A stretch of 64,000 nt of DNA from Fuerstiella sp. GTDB lineage: Bacteria; Planctomycetota; Planctomycetia; Planctomycetales; Planctomycetaceae. The first letter of the stretch is position 1, and each line of letters opens with the position of its first letter. This document shows positions 19,418-25,924 of this stretch, piece by piece. Where the stretch lies: assembly GCA_022843805.1 (NCBI GenBank), contig JALHMY010000027.1:1-64000 (forward strand), given 5' to 3'. Made by a program: the position numbers and the translations under genes. The notes beneath the pieces are model-generated. The model ran no database searches, was not told the DNA's origin, and saw nothing but the letters and a program-made list of their open reading frames with translations.

Positions 19418-20611
19418 TTAAAACAGACCGACCGAACTGTTAACGCCAAACCGAATAATCTGCAGCATTTCCATCAGTACTGTGGCCGGTGTCTGCTCCA
19501 CGGAAACAACGTCCCCCGGGCCAAGCTTAATATTCGAATTGCCGCTTTTCTTCGCTTCCCGCATGCTCAGCTGAATCACAGCCGGATCATGTGAATTGGA
19601 CAGCGGTCGAATCACATAGACCTTGTCTGCAAGCTGATTGGATGGTCCGCCTGCCATGGCAATGGCCTCCAGCACCGTCAGGTCCTTGCCAAAGGGAAAA
19701 GGATACTGATCGGCTTTGCGAACCAGCCCGGTGACCGTCACAGGTGGCGGATCTCGCTTCTCAACCATGATCACTCCTCCATCCTGAACCAGATAACTTC
19801 CGTCTCCCGACTTGGCGGCGGAAATCAGGTCAATCGTGTAGGAGTTGTTATGAGTCGGCTCCGAAACTTCGGTGGTGCTGGTGCTGCTGACAGACGAATA
19901 TGGACTTTCAGGATTTCCGGCTACCGCTGGACGCGGTGTGACCGTGGGAACACTGGGGTTGCGAATCTCAACTTTAGTGCCTGCATTTTCCGCAAGCCCT
20001 CCGGCAGCGGCAATCGCCGAGACGACATCGCTGGAATTCGGTGGCAGTTCGTAAGTACCTTCGGCCTTAACGGCCCCAAGGACACGTATGCGATTCTTGC
20101 GCATCTGCTTGACTGTTACCGTCACCGAAGGATTCAGATAAAGACCCCGCCTGATCAGTTCCATCCGAATGAGCGATTCGGCAGCTTCCGGCGCATATCC
20201 GGCCAGTTGAAAAGTAATGTCGTCGCCCGGCAGACTTCCCGAACCATCGTTCGCCACGCGAATCGGCAGATCGACTTTGTCGTTTGTCCCGAGACCCGCA
20301 GCAATCGATACCTCCAGAACATCTCCCGGGCCAATGATTTCACTGCCGCCCGTAACACTTGCAAGTCGAGAAAAGTTGACTTCCTGCGCGTTTCGCTGTG
20401 ATGTCAGCCGAAGATTCTTCGGAAGGCTTTCCGCCATAAAATGATTCGGTCCGCGACAGCCGGTCAAACCGGTTAACAGAATCAGTCCGAGAATACACAG
20501 AAGTTTCGCCCTTCCAGCCGTCGCCGACCAACAGTGCGATCCACAGGAACACCCTGCCTGTGGCAGAGCGCCCGATCGTCTCGCTCGGTAATCCGTCTGT
20601 TTGTGATTCAT
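19418..20611 (-). CDS. Wza-like polysaccharide export lipoprotein
   Basis: Predicted outer membrane export channel subunit, 397 aa. A hydrophobic segment ends in lipobox LTGC (Cys52), although the ~36-residue region before it is long and the true start may be internal. The Poly_export domain follows (GPGDVLEVSIAAGLG...). Two SLBB-type beta-grasp domains come next: VLGAVKAEGTYELPPNSSDV and VTGLVRKADQYPFPFGKDLT. The C-terminal LGPGDVVSVEQTP is typical of the family. A Ser/Thr-rich insert lies between the SLBB domains. It is the first gene of the operon with the Wzc-like kinase and the ligase. Confidence 0.92.
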   Translation of the reverse strand: MNHKQTDYRARRSGALPQAGCSCGSHCWSATAGRAKLLCILGLILLTGLTGCRGPNHFMAESLPKNLRLTSQRNAQEVNFSRLASVTGGSEIIGPGDVLEVSIAAGLGTNDKVDLPIRVANDGSGSLPGDDITFQLAGYAPEAAESLIRMELIRRGLYLNPSVTVTVKQMRKNRIRVLGAVKAEGTYELPPNSSDVVSAIAAAGGLAENAGTKVEIRNPSVPTVTPRPAVAGNPESPYSSVSSTSTTEVSEPTHNNSYTIDLISAAKSGDGSYLVQDGGVIMVEKRDPPPVTVTGLVRKADQYPFPFGKDLTVLEAIAMAGGPSNQLADKVYVIRPLSNSHDPAVIQLSMREAKKSGNSNIKLGPGDVVSVEQTPATVLMEMLQIIRFGVNSSVGLF

Positions 20612-21545
20612 TGAGAATTACTCTTCGACATCTGCTGACTTCTGATTGTCCGACAGTGAGTGAGCCACTACCGGCTTTTCTGAATCTGTCCTGTGTCTGA
20701 TTGAATCCGTTCAAACTCAGTCATCGCGCTGAGAAATGCGATGAACTGAATAAAAACAGAATCTGACAGATTTTCAGATGAAATTAGCAAATGCAGGGAT
20801 AGGACACGCACCCGCGGCAGATTGGTCCACAGCTGCGTGACGAGAGGAGAAGAGAGGGTTCCAGACTAACGGCAGGATCGTAAATAGTTTCAAAAGAATG
20901 CTGGCTGCCCCTTCCGTCCGGAAGACACAGCAAATCAAGGTTTTTTTGCCGGAAAACTCCAGCGTGCGGCAAGCTTCGCCGAACTCTGAAGGACGGCATT
21001 CAGAGTTCTAAAGAAAATTCGTAGTTCGGGTCAAGGTGAATGTCCGTGCCATTGCATACATCAACTTCCCACTTTCAGGGATCATGCCTCAGCGAGCGGA
21101 GTGGCGTCAGCCCTCCGAGGTCCGCGCACCTGCGATTCTGCTGCTTTTGCTGCCCGTGATGTTATGCTGGAACAGATACTCTGTGCGGGAACTGGATTAC
21201 AAGCGTCAGGGGAAATCGCACTCGGAGGGCTGACGCCACTCCGCTCGCCTGCGCTGCATCTTCTCGGAGTTCTCCGTGACGTCACTGACCTGCCATAATA
21301 ACTTAACTCTGGACAACCCTTCAGATTCGGGGGTATCATCACTGGGTGTTGCCGAAGTTCTTCAGCGTTCCTGTCGCGTGCGACAAGTGCTCTTTCAAAG
21401 TTTGAGATTTGGGTTAACAAAAATGAGCCGCTGGGCGAATGGCCCACGGTTCAGAACCGGACACTGGCAAATTCCGGATAATCACGCGAAACCCAACGCC
21501 TGACTTAGACAGATCCCTTTAGATCGTGTTACGAGAGATCAAGCT
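20612..21545. other. Intergenic region between divergent wza-like and DUF1501 genes
   Basis: About 930 bp separate the divergent genes, so promoters for both should lie here. The only structure I can support is the MITE-like element at 21092-21248. No credible gene is visible. Confidence 0.5.
21092..21248. mobile_element. MITE-like element with perfect 28-bp terminal inverted repeats
   Basis: The left arm (21092-21119, starting GCGAGCGGAGTGGCGT) and the right arm (21221-21248, ending CCACTCCGCTCGC) are perfect reverse complements over 28 bp, with about 101 bp of unrelated sequence between. There is no ORF inside. A single diverged arm plus its inner shoulder recurs at 23898-23938. A REP-associated transposase remnant lies 2 kb away, a plausible source of mobilisation, though that link is inference. 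Confidence 0.75.
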
Positions 21546-22967
21546 ATGCTCAGAGTCTTTGGTCGACAGGTTTCACACAGAGGTCGCATCGGCCGTCGCG
21601 AAATTCTGAGAGCCGGTGCCCTGGCGCTGGGTGGTCTGTCTGTTCCGGGATTTCTCAGAGACATTGCGAACGCACAAACTTCCGGAACAGCAAAAACAGC
21701 CAAACGCTGCATTTTGATGTTGCTGAACGGAGGTCAGGCACAGCAGGACACTTTTGATATGAAGCCGGAGGCTCCGGCAAGCGTCAGAGGGCCTTATAAT
21801 CCGATTTCCACGGTAGTACCCGGCATTCAGATCTGCGAACGTCTTCCAATGCTTTCCCGTATCGCCGACAGGATGGCCATCATCCGGTCGATGCACCACC
21901 ATCTGCTGGCCCACAATACAGGCGCTGCCTATGCATTGAGTGGCCACTCGCCTGGAACAGACCAGGATATCTCACCGAAGCCCACGAACCATCCGACGTA
22001 TGGTTCCGTGATTTCCAAAGTCCTGCCGGCACCAGACGGCATGCCCAGCTTTGTTCTCACACCCACATACCTGTTTGACATGGGATTCCCGACGCCCAGT
22101 GCGGGCGGTGGCTGGCTGGGAAAAGCCTACGACCCGTTTCCACTGGTCCGCAATCGCATGATGGCCCGTTCGCCAGCATGGGAGGGCAAGTTACCGGTTC
22201 CCGAGGATTTAGCACTGCCGGAGGGAATCAATGCGAACCGACTGCAGTCCCGACAATCACTGTTGCAGTCAATGGACGGGGAGTTTACAGACAGTCATCG
22301 GGTTGCCAGCCTGAAAACGCTGGAAAGCCATCAGTCCCGTGCCCTGCAGCTCATCCTTTCTTCCAAAACTCAGCAGGCGTTTGATCTCAGCCAGGAGCCG
22401 CAGAAAGTTCACGATCGTTACGGTCGTTTTGAAATGGGGCAGGTGATGCTTCTCTCACGCCGCATGATCGAAGCGGGTGTTCAGTTTGTGACGGCCAATG
22501 CCGTTTCAAATCCTTCGGGCACGGCTTTGTCTCCCTTTCAAATCTGGGACACACACTTTGACCATTTTCGGCTCTACAACACCCATCTTCTGCCCGAATT
22601 TGATCAGGCACTGTCAGCACTGATCACGGACCTTGACGAGCGGGGTCTCCTCGATGAGACACTGGTCGTCGTGATGGGCGAGTTTGGCAGGACACCCAAA
22701 ATCAACGACGCAAAAGACGGTGGTCGTGATCACTGGTCACGAGCTTACTCGATTCAGCTGTTTGGAGGCGGCATACGTGGCGGCGTTGTCTATGGCGCAA
22801 CCGACGCACATGCCGCAGAAGTTACGGAATCGCCAGTGAAGCCGGATGACATCGCCGCCACCATTTTCCACTGCCTTGGCATTCAGCACGATCTCGTTCT
22901 GCACGACCAGAAAGGCCAGCCTCACAAGATCAGCGAGGGCGAACCGTTGTACTCACTGATAACGTAG
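21546..22967 (+). CDS. DUF1501 domain protein, Tat-exported
   Basis: 473 aa, of the sulfatase-like DUF1501 family that is greatly expanded in planctomycetes. The N-terminus has GRREILRAGALALGGLSVPGF, close to a twin-arginine signal. Family features include CILMLLNGGQAQQDTFDMKP, IRSMHHHLLAHNTGAAYALSG, the mid-protein GVQFVTANAV, and the C-terminal VVMGEFGRTPKIN and GRDHWSRAYSIQLFGGGI, which carry probable metal ligands as in alkaline phosphatase-fold enzymes. In planctomycetes DUF1501 genes often pair with a DUF1549/DUF1553 gene; that partner is absent here. Substrate unknown. Confidence 0.93.
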   Translation: MLRVFGRQVSHRGRIGRREILRAGALALGGLSVPGFLRDIANAQTSGTAKTAKRCILMLLNGGQAQQDTFDMKPEAPASVRGPYNPISTVVPGIQICERLPMLSRIADRMAIIRSMHHHLLAHNTGAAYALSGHSPGTDQDISPKPTNHPTYGSVISKVLPAPDGMPSFVLTPTYLFDMGFPTPSAGGGWLGKAYDPFPLVRNRMMARSPAWEGKLPVPEDLALPEGINANRLQSRQSLLQSMDGEFTDSHRVASLKTLESHQSRALQLILSSKTQQAFDLSQEPQKVHDRYGRFEMGQVMLLSRRMIEAGVQFVTANAVSNPSGTALSPFQIWDTHFDHFRLYNTHLLPEFDQALSALITDLDERGLLDETLVVVMGEFGRTPKINDAKDGGRDHWSRAYSIQLFGGGIRGGVVYGATDAHAAEVTESPVKPDDIAATIFHCLGIQHDLVLHDQKGQPHKISEGEPLYSLIT

Positions 22968-23088
22968 GAATCTGTCCGCAGACCCCAGTTCCCTCGCCAG
23001 CGCTGACGATCTGGCGGAACATGAAGTTGACTGCGGTGATCAGCACGCCAGCCACACCGCTCGCCTTTGATGATTCGTTGTATGGGAG

Positions 23089-23642
23089 CTATCTCCACGT
23101 CACTGTGACTGGATTGATCCAGATCACGAGCGGGTTTTCCTGTTTGGCAATGTAATCAACGGCATTCAAAATGGCAGGGAGGTCGCGCTTCCGTTTTTTC
23201 GAGCCGGATTCAGTCCACCATGTTCCCGATGCAGGTACTCCATACAGCCGATTCAATTCGCGACTTCCGTAAGCCTTTAATCCTCCAAGTAAACTATCGG
23301 GCTTCGGATCTCCAGGTACACCGAGCAAAACGTGAATATGAGCTCTCATAATTGCCACAGCCGCGAGCAGCCACTTTCGATGATTGCAGGTTTCGTGAAA
23401 CTGTGCCAGCAGCTCAATGGCCTGCTGTTCCTCCAGCCAGATGGGGTCTCCCAGCAGAGAATCTCGTGCGGACTCATTCAATTGTGGCATGACGCCTGTC
23501 CGGGGTTCTCCAAACTTATCTTCTTCCACACGATGTGCTCGCCAGGCTTGCGAATTCGCGTGACCGAACCTCGTGCATCACCGGGCAGCCACTGGCCATA
23601 AGTCGTCCATGTCAGATGCCAGTAACGATCGATGCCTTGCAT
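23089..23642 (-). pseudogene. REP-associated tyrosine transposase (IS200/Y1-like), frameshifted
   Basis: The gene begins at ATG 23642 and first reads MQGIDRYWHLTWTTYGQW, LPGDARG, RKPGEHIV, the standard N-terminus of this family. It then runs into a stop in that frame. The rest continues in another frame from about 23529: EEDKFGEP, PIWLEEQQAIELLAQFHETC, the HUH-type motif RAHIHVLLGVPGDP, the catalytic-Tyr region LKAYGSRELNRLYG, and SGTWWTESGSKKRK. The break is at GTGTGG near 23527, fitting a small indel. Both halves keep recognisable motifs, so the damage looks recent. Such transposases are known to mobilise short palindromic repeats. Confidence 0.8.
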
Positions 23643-23897
23643 GCGATATCACCTTGATAAAGGCAAAGGCCGATGAGATTCGCCAGGGGCGACTAACGAA
23701 ATTAATTGCGGCAACAATAATACATGTACGTGAAACAACTATGTTTTTACTGATAGGTTATTTTAATACCTTAGGCTGCATTTTGGCAAGAGTACTGTAA
23801 TCAAAAAACTGTACGCAATACGCTTAGCAGTGACTTTAAGAGGAATTACGGAATCTGGACACGCGGAGCGGAAATTGCGTCGGTGGGCTGCAATTCG
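23643..23897. other. AT-rich intergenic stretch
   Basis: About 255 bp without a gene. The part from ~23690 to ~23860 is visibly richer in A and T than the surroundings. It lies between the transposase pseudogene and a solo inverted-repeat arm, so it may be a scar of insertion. A small hairpin with ATTGC and GCAAT arms sits near 23872-23895. Confidence 0.45.
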
Positions 23898-23938
23898 GCG
23901 AGCGGAGCGGCGTTAGCCCTCCGAGGTCCGCGCAGCTG
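23898..23938. repeat. Solo copy of the 21092 element arm
   Basis: GCGAGCGGAGCGGCGTTAGC followed by CCTCCGAGGTCCGCGCA matches the left arm of the 21092-21248 element plus its inner flank with only a few mismatches. It encodes the last residues and the stop codon of the aldo/keto reductase gene that ends at 23913. Confidence 0.8.
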
Positions 23939-24866
23939 CAAGTGATGGCCATTGTGAGGGTGTCACGAGTGCTTCGGCAAGCTGCGGGATCGTGGCGGTA
24001 ACCGATGTCAGAACATCTGACGGAAGCGGCCCTCGATCAAAGATTGCCAGATTGTCCTGTACCTGATCAAGCGTTTCAATGCCTGTCAGCACACACGTGA
24101 CGCCAGCCTGTGAAAGCATAAAACGGACAGCCAGCTCATTCAGTCGCATGCCCGCTTCCCTGGCCACATGTTCGAGCTGACGGCGAGCAGGAATCACGGG
24201 CTGCAGGTGGACCGGGATTTCTGACTCTGCCATCGTCAGAAGCCCCTGCAGATATACACTGCGTACGAAAACGGCCACGTCACGTTCTGATGCCTGAGTA
24301 AATACGCCACTGTTCAAATGACGAGGATCCATCAGATTGCATGGAATCTGCAGCGCCGTCACATTTTCTTCCTGGACAAACTGCGCGGCGGGACCGGGAC
24401 GATTGTCACAGGAAACCCCCATGTGGTTTAGCCAGCCACGGTGTCGCAGATCTTCGAGAACGTGCATGTAAACCGCGTCTGACTCGCGGTGAAACAGTAC
24501 CACGGGAAGGCAATCGATTTGCAGACGGCGGCGTGACTGATCCACGGACTGAATAATTGCATCGGTTGCCAGCTGATGATCTGCAAGCTGTTCGGGCGTC
24601 AGCCAGTGAACCTTGGTGACAATGGTCAGAGAGTCCTGCAGTTTCAGTTCGCGAACAGCCTTTCCAAGCACCTCTTCACTGGTGCCATAAGCAGCCGCAG
24701 TGTCAGCGCAGTTCACGCCACCCGCCACGGCCGCTTCAAGCATCTTCAGGACATCATGAAAGGAGGGCTGTCCAAAGCGGTTGGCGACGCCGTACGGCAT
24801 GCCAAACTGAACGGTTCCCAGCATCATTCCGGATAGCCGGAGATTCTTCCATTTACTGGTCTGCAT
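23913..24866 (-). CDS. Aldo/keto reductase
   Basis: NADPH-dependent oxidoreductase of the AKR superfamily, 317 aa from the start I prefer at 24866 (MQTSKWKNLRLSGMMLGT). A longer start at 25025 would overlap the next gene by ~70 bp and adds a basic, unconserved leader. TIM-barrel motifs are GGVNCADTAAAYGTSEEVLG (with the catalytic-type Asp and Tyr), LTIVTKVHWL (Lys) and VVLFHRES (the equivalent of the conserved His strand). The C-terminal residues ARTSEG come from an intergenic repeat, so the natural end of the protein has been altered. It probably acts on a sugar or sugar-derived aldehyde together with neighbouring enzymes; that is inference. Confidence 0.85.
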   Translation of the reverse strand: MQTSKWKNLRLSGMMLGTVQFGMPYGVANRFGQPSFHDVLKMLEAAVAGGVNCADTAAAYGTSEEVLGKAVRELKLQDSLTIVTKVHWLTPEQLADHQLATDAIIQSVDQSRRRLQIDCLPVVLFHRESDAVYMHVLEDLRHRGWLNHMGVSCDNRPGPAAQFVQEENVTALQIPCNLMDPRHLNSGVFTQASERDVAVFVRSVYLQGLLTMAESEIPVHLQPVIPARRQLEHVAREAGMRLNELAVRFMLSQAGVTCVLTGIETLDQVQDNLAIFDRGPLPSDVLTSVTATIPQLAEALVTPSQWPSLAAARTSEG

Positions 24867-24952
24867 CGTATTTTGTGTCGAATACCGGGGTCCTGCAGGA
24901 TTTTTTCGAACCGGACGCACGGGCTGTCCGGCTTTCCGCACTGTTCTGTTTG

Positions 24953-25924
24953 TTAATCCGGAAGCTGAACCTTTGCCAGATAGATATTTGTCTTTCCCTC
25001 GTGTGATGAGTAGTAGCTGACCCACAGCAGACCTTCGTGCATCACCAGGCCCGCGTAGCTGGTATCACCACCGGACGGCAGTGCAAGAAACTCGCTGATC
25101 CTGCCTTCGGTCACATCGACCCAGCACAGGGATGTTCGCACTTTGCCATCGTGCAATCGTACGGCGGCAACAAATCTTCCATCAGGAAGCCGAAGCATAT
25201 GGGGACCACCAATTCGAGTGCCCAGATCCTTCCATTCCCATGTTGTGTACGGCGGATTTGACATACCAATCAGACCGGTTTTTGATTGCGTGTCGCGACG
25301 AAGCAGGCACCAGGCCGTGTCATCATGAAACACGATCGATGTTTCATTGGGATACCCGTCCTGCAGCAGCGTCTTAACAAGCGTCTGATATTTGATGCCG
25401 TCATCACTGGAGTAGAGTCTCACCGATTTCTCAGGCCCGGCCGCATAACCGATTCCATAAGATTTTCCTTTATGCCAGGTTGTTCGCCACATCCAGAAGT
25501 CCGGATCCCCAACTTCATGGCTGCTGCCCCATTCCCGGCCATCTTTTGAAAACCAAACCAGCGACTGGTGTGTGTGTCTGGATTTATCATGCCATGCGCC
25601 CGCTCCGGAAAGCATCAGCCTGCCATCCGGCGTTACAGAGATTTTCGCATCCCGCAGATCTGAGTCCGGCGATGTGATCAATGCGGCTGAATTCCAGTCT
25701 TTACCATCCGTCGACACAATTACCCTCAGCGCACCATCCGGGGAAACATGTCCCTGTCCTTCACGGAACACGCAAAACCATTCTCCGTTGAATCGCACGA
25801 GATCCGTGAATGCATTGTGCGGAGCCTTATCCCAGATCTTTGCCGCCTCCACCAGTTTCGCTTCCTGAGCGAAAACCGAAGAAGAAATCATGATTAGAAA
25901 CGCAGGAAGACAATAATTCTTCAT
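24953..25924 (-). CDS. Exported sialidase-like beta-propeller protein
   Basis: 323 aa with a clear signal peptide (NYCLPAFLIMISSSVFAQ). Repeated blade-like segments contain Asp-box-like sequences: VSTDGKDWNS, FSKDGREWGS and SSDDGIKYQT. The pattern DLVRFNGEWFCVFREGQGH near the N-terminus, with Arg and Glu in FREG, is typical of planctomycete exo-alpha-sialidase-like proteins. The real substrate may not be sialic acid. It lies between the aldo/keto reductase and D-threonine aldolase-like genes on the same strand. Confidence 0.75.
   Translation of the reverse strand: MKNYCLPAFLIMISSSVFAQEAKLVEAAKIWDKAPHNAFTDLVRFNGEWFCVFREGQGHVSPDGALRVIVSTDGKDWNSAALITSPDSDLRDAKISVTPDGRLMLSGAGAWHDKSRHTHQSLVWFSKDGREWGSSHEVGDPDFWMWRTTWHKGKSYGIGYAAGPEKSVRLYSSDDGIKYQTLVKTLLQDGYPNETSIVFHDDTAWCLLRRDTQSKTGLIGMSNPPYTTWEWKDLGTRIGGPHMLRLPDGRFVAAVRLHDGKVRTSLCWVDVTEGRISEFLALPSGGDTSYAGLVMHEGLLWVSYYSSHEGKTNIYLAKVQLPD

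Follow-up and report, generated by a model that had tools for sequence, protein, structure and literature searches.

If a perfect inverted repeat lies close to a decayed transposase gene, was the one the substrate of the other, and to what kind of system would the two belong? The question is raised by the window analysed here, a stretch of 64,000 nucleotides (positions 1 to 64,000 of contig JALHMY010000027.1, Fuerstiella sp., assembly GCA_022843805.1).

The palindromic element and the broken gene

The element in question occupies 21092-21248 and is 157 bp long. Its left arm (21092-21119, forward strand) is of the type that we designate L, in which a tag, here AGCGAG at 21091-21096, is followed by a bulged hairpin with a GTCA loop; the second arm (21221-21248, reverse strand) stands in the position of an R arm but has L-type sequence, and its tag, GGCGAG, ends at 21249. 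A sequence-only reading of this DNA had described perfect 28-bp inverted repeats around about 101 bp, and this is what we find: 21092-21119 and the reverse complement of 21221-21248 are 100% identical over 28 bp, with ~101 bp between them. The interior (21120-21220), a spacer, has the L shoulder GTCCGCGC and the R shoulder AATCGCA, both common to most of the other arrays. As a single strand, the element folds at -54.8 kcal/mol vs -28.0 (sd 3.0) for shuffled sequences (z -9.0), and the whole unit has 71-80% identity to full-length units in BLAST comparisons. It is bordered by a reverse-strand ORF (19418-20611) and by a DUF1501 gene starting at 21546. The label 'MITE', first attached to the element, has to be corrected: Because the arms are themselves tagged hairpins (REPs) and the units form tandem arrays, it is better termed a REPIN/BIME unit, one of a genome-wide family of probably mobile DNA palindromes.

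Between this element and a solo arm, where the same reading had placed a transposase pseudogene, the reverse strand does carry one, a frameshifted, class-3-like Y1/HUH transposase gene (23089-23642) that matches the Pfam model Y1_Tnp (PF01797) at 25.3 bits (cut-off 23; stops read as X) and, in a scan of the whole genome, at 26.2 bits. Its N-terminal part can be read in one frame and the remainder in a different one. The Tyr motif is retained, as are the two HUH histidines, the latter as AHIH vs NHxH in five aligned homologues, such that the gene possesses all that identifies a Y1 HUH transposase (the domain above its cut-off, the HUH pair and the tyrosine). The frameshift could be an error in the 172-contig assembly, and the transposase activity has presumably been lost in the source genome.

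The gene is flanked by arms on both sides. A decayed R-type REP (23034-23065, reverse strand; extent judged by eye) lies 23 bp past the transposase stop, with the tag half exact (GGCGAGCGGTGTGGC, 23052-23065), the loop side altered and CACCG still present. Upstream, 254 bp from the gene start, is an L-type REP arm (23897-23925, forward strand), followed at 23926-23939 on the same strand by what sequence matching identifies as the inner L shoulder of the same decayed unit; the diverged solo arm with inner shoulder that had been reported is real, with 93% identity over 42 nt (23898-23939). By chance, an arm cluster within 0.4 kb on one given side of a gene would be expected 0.0013 times, assuming ~30 clusters in 9.2 Mb. 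The solo L arm also extends into the 3' end of a reverse-strand ORF (23913-25025) that by eye resembles an aldo/keto reductase, and because of this overlap the REP may supply the last codons and the stop of that ORF.

The arm family in the source genome

A genome-wide search with the arm, the check that the sequence-only reading had called for, disposes of the possibility that the arm occurs only here: Its core is present in 85 copies at up to 3 mismatches (46 forward, 39 reverse), and the reversed pattern is present in none on either strand. There are two main arm forms, L (CGGAG...CTCCG) and R (CGGTG...CACCG), distinguished in the stem by a compensatory exchange of A-T for T-A. Under a stricter pattern, 82 arms in 21 stretches (leaving out those on C19, C64, C103 and C117) were tallied as 42 L, 38 R and 2 hybrid. 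The arms occur mostly in left/right pairs ~150 bp long, many of them in tandem arrays, and where the tags face outward at a distance of 80-120 bp, 24 of the 26 pairs combine L with R; of the other two, one has a hybrid arm and one, the window element, is the only L/L outward pair among the 26. The 11 neighbouring pairs in the same orientation (5 and 2 L-L, 4 R-R) represent units in which one arm is absent or fails to match; examples are found at C55, C58 and C1. Linkers of 15-19 bp join the tandem units at C12, C25, C74, C81, C83 and C88.

All four arms that we folded adopt a common hairpin after the GGCGAG tag, singly bulged and with a loop of four bases (GTCA or GTTA); single arms fold modestly better than shuffled sequences (z -1.2 to -2.3), and an R-linker-L segment folds at -34.2 kcal/mol (z -7.6). 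A short hairpin with a conserved 5' foot in many copies per genome is what is understood by a REP, and inverted doublets of it, some in tandem, are what is understood by a REPIN. The arms and interiors of 28 units from 11 loci differ in their conservation: Between loci, arms are 97% identical, a figure that is partly a product of choice because the pattern that selected them permitted one mismatch, and interiors 46%, with gaps scored as differences; within a locus, interiors are 88% identical. From these sequences it would appear that the arms are retained as the interiors diverge, and that arrays expand in place.

In a check of 59 genomes, the arm was found 89 times in the source genome and once each in three others, and was absent from three congeners (one of them only 66% complete); a looser REP pattern gave 16 matches in one of these congeners, G001, vs 3 in its control. 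Either horizontal gain or repeated loss would explain the presence of the arm here and its absence from the congeners, whose 66% nucleotide identity in one flanking gene leaves no usable synteny for an empty-site comparison. Isolated R-L pairs with a gap of 15-16 bp, at C20, C34 and C145, are embedded in a longer shared sequence with GACCTGACCCCTTT-like motifs, and because of this embedding they may have been carried as part of another repeat.

The genome contains 12 Y1_Tnp loci. When the protein of an intact paralogue on C13 is used as the query (E ≤ 0.001), that paralogue is the only match in the genome besides the window gene. Units of a second REP family adjoin this paralogue on either side; their arms are GGCGAGCGGCCCGGTGTCAACCGGCCGGTA and a partner form, and the former has 22 copies when up to 3 mismatches are allowed (control 0). 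The genome also has a pair of class-2 RAYT-like genes that closely resemble each other, at C34:41683-42021 (L034) and C112:799-1137 (L037); the C34 copy scores 64.4 bits against the RAYT model NF047646, below its cut-off of 80. Because one second-family REP (C112:1452-1481) begins 17 bp past the C112 stop codon (ORF 760-1434, if L037 begins at contig base 1), this second family may be associated with more than the C13 gene.

Related transposases and their palindromes

Intact relatives of the window gene should reveal whether such transposases lie beside such repeats. Among 170 genomes searched at E ≤ 1e-40, homologues occur in the source genome and in five others, all of one other genus. The closest that we found (G153) is 66% identical in amino acids and uninterrupted; an L-like arm with an altered 3' half lies upstream of it, and downstream are an L-like arm and, beyond it, an R arm that over 34 nt is identical to the R arm of the source genome, which has 18 exact copies in stretches L009-L028. 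A second homologue (G359) has L-like and R-like arms on either side. The genes of G153 and G359, the window gene and the C13 paralogue all lie between inverted REPs, the arrangement of a REPtron. The sequence-only reading had asked whether related transposases adjoin these repeats; in another genus, homologues of the window gene do have arms on their flanks that are either the same or close relatives. Arm-like sites under a looser pattern number 69 in G153, 45 in G359, 122 in G358, 31 in G303 and 38 in G173, vs none in G001, G003, G266 and G295, 5 in G179 and 19 in G249, which have no close homologue; the reversed control gave 0 in both groups, and the lack of a homologue was shown directly for G001 and G003 and taken, for the remaining four, from their absence among the six matches in the same family. 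Many of the sites in the sister genus are of a variant form (GAGCGGCAGGGCGTCAGCCCTCCGAG), and among the matches listed the exact pattern occurs at least 13 times in G153, at least 8 times in G303 and at least once in G358, those listed including none for G359 and G173. Because intact planctomycete relatives sit between palindromes of the same kind, the broken window gene is, on these sequences, most likely the enzyme that once spread the palindromes.

Across the bacterial class, 297 genomes were surveyed, of which 116 had a homologue at E ≤ 1e-10; homologues at E ≤ 1e-25 were termed strong, and genomes with at least 20 matches, and at least 3 times the reversed control, were termed REP-rich. 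None of the class-wide association tests is corrected for host phylogeny. REP-rich genomes made up 46 of the 66 with a strong homologue, 8 of the 50 with a weak one and 20 of the 181 with none. Against a tight pairing, 20 of the 66 genomes with a strong homologue were not REP-rich, and the 20 of 181 were REP-rich without a homologue; G250, G172, G082 and G236 have 672, 381, 207 and 150 GGCGAGC matches, respectively, and no homologue at E ≤ 1e-10. Because the REP pattern had been devised after viewing 30 loci from 30 genomes, the count was repeated on the 36 other strong genomes, of which 22 were REP-rich vs 20 of 181 (p 6e-10; the 22 and the remaining 14 tallied by hand).

At 80 loci that had not been viewed, a GGCGAGC REP lay within 350 bp of 19 of the 44 strong homologues (on both sides in 13) and of 0 of the 36 weaker ones, with a reversed control of 0, and the density of such REPs was 1.43 per kb near the genes vs 0.05 far from them. 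The other 25 strong loci lacked the GGCGAGC pattern, and in all 25 the two flanks had a different repeat of 15-37 nt in common. Of all 110 loci, 103 had usable flanks, and a repeat of at least 15 nt was common to both 400-bp flanks in 89 of these 103, vs 1 of 98 at 1-1.4 kb. A search for feet that presupposed no tag ranked GGCGAG first (86 near vs 2 far, in 27 genomes), ahead of GGCGAA (20, 3), GGTGAA (13, 0) and AGCGAG (12, 2), and distances among REPs were correlated with those among transposases (Mantel r 0.34, p 0.0004; 34 loci). The flanks of weaker Y1 homologues (for example, L126, L131, L133, L135 and L146) share other hairpin-like repeats, with cores such as GAGCCGCGACCG.AAGGGAGCGG or GAGCCGGAAGCGTTAGCG, which suggests that other transposase subclades have further REP types.

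If the hairpins themselves are conserved, the two sides of the stem should change together. We took 65 different REPs from the gene flanks of 33 genomes, with tag and loop as the sole selection criteria; bases paired at 87.7% of cells vs 64.3% after shuffling, and stem covariation was 0.576 vs 0.165 (sd 0.018) in shuffled and 0.11-0.16 in slid alignments; changes on both sides were seen in 7 of 8 stem pairs, a count that 114 of 500 shuffles equalled. Because a PDB sequence search gave the IS200 transposase 2f4f at E 0.022, the fold was examined by modelling the G153-type protein (mean pLDDT 85). The model matches ISDra2 TnpA (E 2.1e-5) with a modest TM of 0.44 on the query and a large rmsd of 10.0, and 4er8, a REP-associated transposase bound to its REP hairpin (E 8.2e-5), with a modest TM of 0.48 on the query and a large rmsd of 8.7. 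Six designed SAKe proteins that topped the PDB sequence search were discounted, no stretch of them passing alone.

Competing explanations and known systems

A possible explanation for so many structured units is that they serve the host, as terminators, gyrase or nucleoid sites or an array of non-coding RNAs, such that the link to a transposase would be historical only. The strong fold of the R-linker-L segment and the many units in arrays are compatible with such a role, and known REPs are described as having acquired functions of this kind in parts of PMC6006769 and PMC3733652. Nevertheless, a Rfam scan of 20600-24200 found no match at gathering thresholds, unit interiors drift, and the absence of the arm from the three congeners would be unexpected for a core function; we consider this reading unlikely. 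More improbable still is that the arms were served by another transposase of the genome, for which the class-2 RAYT-like gene at C34:41683-42021 is the obvious candidate in that an R-L pair with a 15-bp gap lies ~1.2 kb from it. Among the 12 Y1 loci, a window-type arm (up to 6 mismatches, in the fetched flank) occurs only at C34 and at C27, the window itself; but the fetched flank of the very similar C112 gene has none, at C20 and C145 the related R-L pairs are part of shared repeated sequence, and it is with a window-type gene that arms are paired in G153 and G359. We judge the proximity of the C34 gene to be coincidental.

Taken alone, with its perfect 28-bp inverted repeat around 101 bp, the window element would pass for a true MITE bounded by the terminal inverted repeats of a DDE-type insertion sequence. 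Such an origin does not predict that 24 of 26 outward-tag pairs are L/R heterodimers, that the REP stems of the clade covary, or that, in other genomes, Y1 transposase genes have repeats common to both flanks; on the heterodimers and the covariation we set it aside as the least probable of the three.

The explanation that we favour, and in which our confidence is high, is that the window holds part of a REPIN/BIME-like family together with its broken class-3-like HUH transposase, whose substrates, by analogy with characterised systems, would be the REPs. That the arms may be substrates had been proposed from the sequence, and the 85 arms and the arm-flanked homologues support it; the cutting itself we infer. 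The unit comprises two inverted REP hairpins, their 5' tags (GGCGAG) facing outward around a drifting spacer, and a single-tyrosine HUH enzyme from a class-3-like clade of planctomycetes is the predicted transposase acting on these REPs. If it works as TnpA-REP and IS200/IS605 transposases do, it would bind the hairpin in its single-stranded form, take guidance from the 5' tag and make a cut next to that tag with its tyrosine; the joining of the ends would then copy or move the L-spacer-R unit. Tandem arrays would follow as local products, probably of recombination or slippage.

A broader proposition, to which we give about an even chance, is that these repeats represent a further large planctomycete REP superfamily with the foot GGCGAG (variants GGCGAA, GGTGAA and AGCGAG), produced and mobilised by a class-3-like Y1 clade for which the foot is the guide, with the asymmetric L/R heterodimer as the copied unit. 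Such a system would cross genera, multiply and be able to outlive its transposase, as it may have done in the window, where alike arms surround a freshly broken gene. A little-studied class of single-strand DNA transposases gains a concrete candidate substrate (a tag and a covarying hairpin), the REP/transposase pairing has been tested across one bacterial class, and the genome provides a natural contrast between one repeat population, whose transposase was apparently just broken, and a second population with an intact one.

The comparisons that follow draw on parts of the cited papers. The nearest described system is class 3 of TnpA-Y1 (PMC6006769), which occurs mainly in Planctomycetes, has NHxH and W[TA] motifs, a CnGA foot and Q at +5 of the Y motif, and whose genes are flanked by hairpins that are sometimes high-copy and REPtron-like. 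The likeness extends to the planctomycete Y1/HUH gene, its high-copy flanking hairpins and both protein motifs: The homologues have NHIH, NHVH or NHLH with WT, and the window copy has AHIH with WT; among 77 strong homologues, WT occurs in 44 and WA in 5, with neither matched by regular expression in 20. The foot is different, GGCGAG in place of CnGA, and the published foot is unsupported for the window family (CnGA 30 near and 19 far, GGCGAG 86 and 2). The Y motif differs in part, Q being at +4 in the window gene (YIAKQ); in the 77 strong homologues it is at +4 in 47 and at +5 in 26, some having both, and YIINQQ of the C13 protein fits either. Because of the different foot and the partly different Y motif, we term the gene class-3-like and not class 3.

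The designation 'REP-associated transposase' holds insofar as this is a Y1 transposase with REPs, and fails insofar as it implies the curated RAYT family: Judged from two homologues (26.3 and 33.9 bits against NF047646, cut-off 80) and the C13 paralogue (33.9 bits), the window transposase is outside that family and belongs to a class-3-like Y1 clade that many Planctomycetes possess. The REPIN/RAYT system of Pseudomonas fluorescens SBW25 (PMC3116915) likewise has inverted REP doublets, some tandem clusters with repeated flanks and one REP type adjoining each transposase, and differs in tag and transposase clade. BIMEs and their REP-associated tyrosine transposases (PMC2817692, PMC6006769) share the alternation of two REP forms, as L and R here, the gene flanked by inverted REPs and a similar predicted fold (4er8), whereas their foot is of the GTAG type. 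Members of the GTAG and CGTC superfamilies, with their TIRYTs and TIRtrons (PMC3733652), are tagged stem-loops occurring as dimers and clusters, as here; planctomycete members exist, and R. baltica has many tyrosine transposases with flanking repeats, which we compared by description only. The GGCGAG tag is neither GTAG nor CGTC, which places the present repeats in neither superfamily, and no GGCGAG-tagged REP appears in the consulted parts of PMC3733652, PMC6006769, PMC3116915 and PMC2817692, supplementary files aside. A REP with a Y1 transposase is thus a kind of system already known; what looks new is the tag, the clade, the class-wide test, and a repeat population left beside its broken gene.
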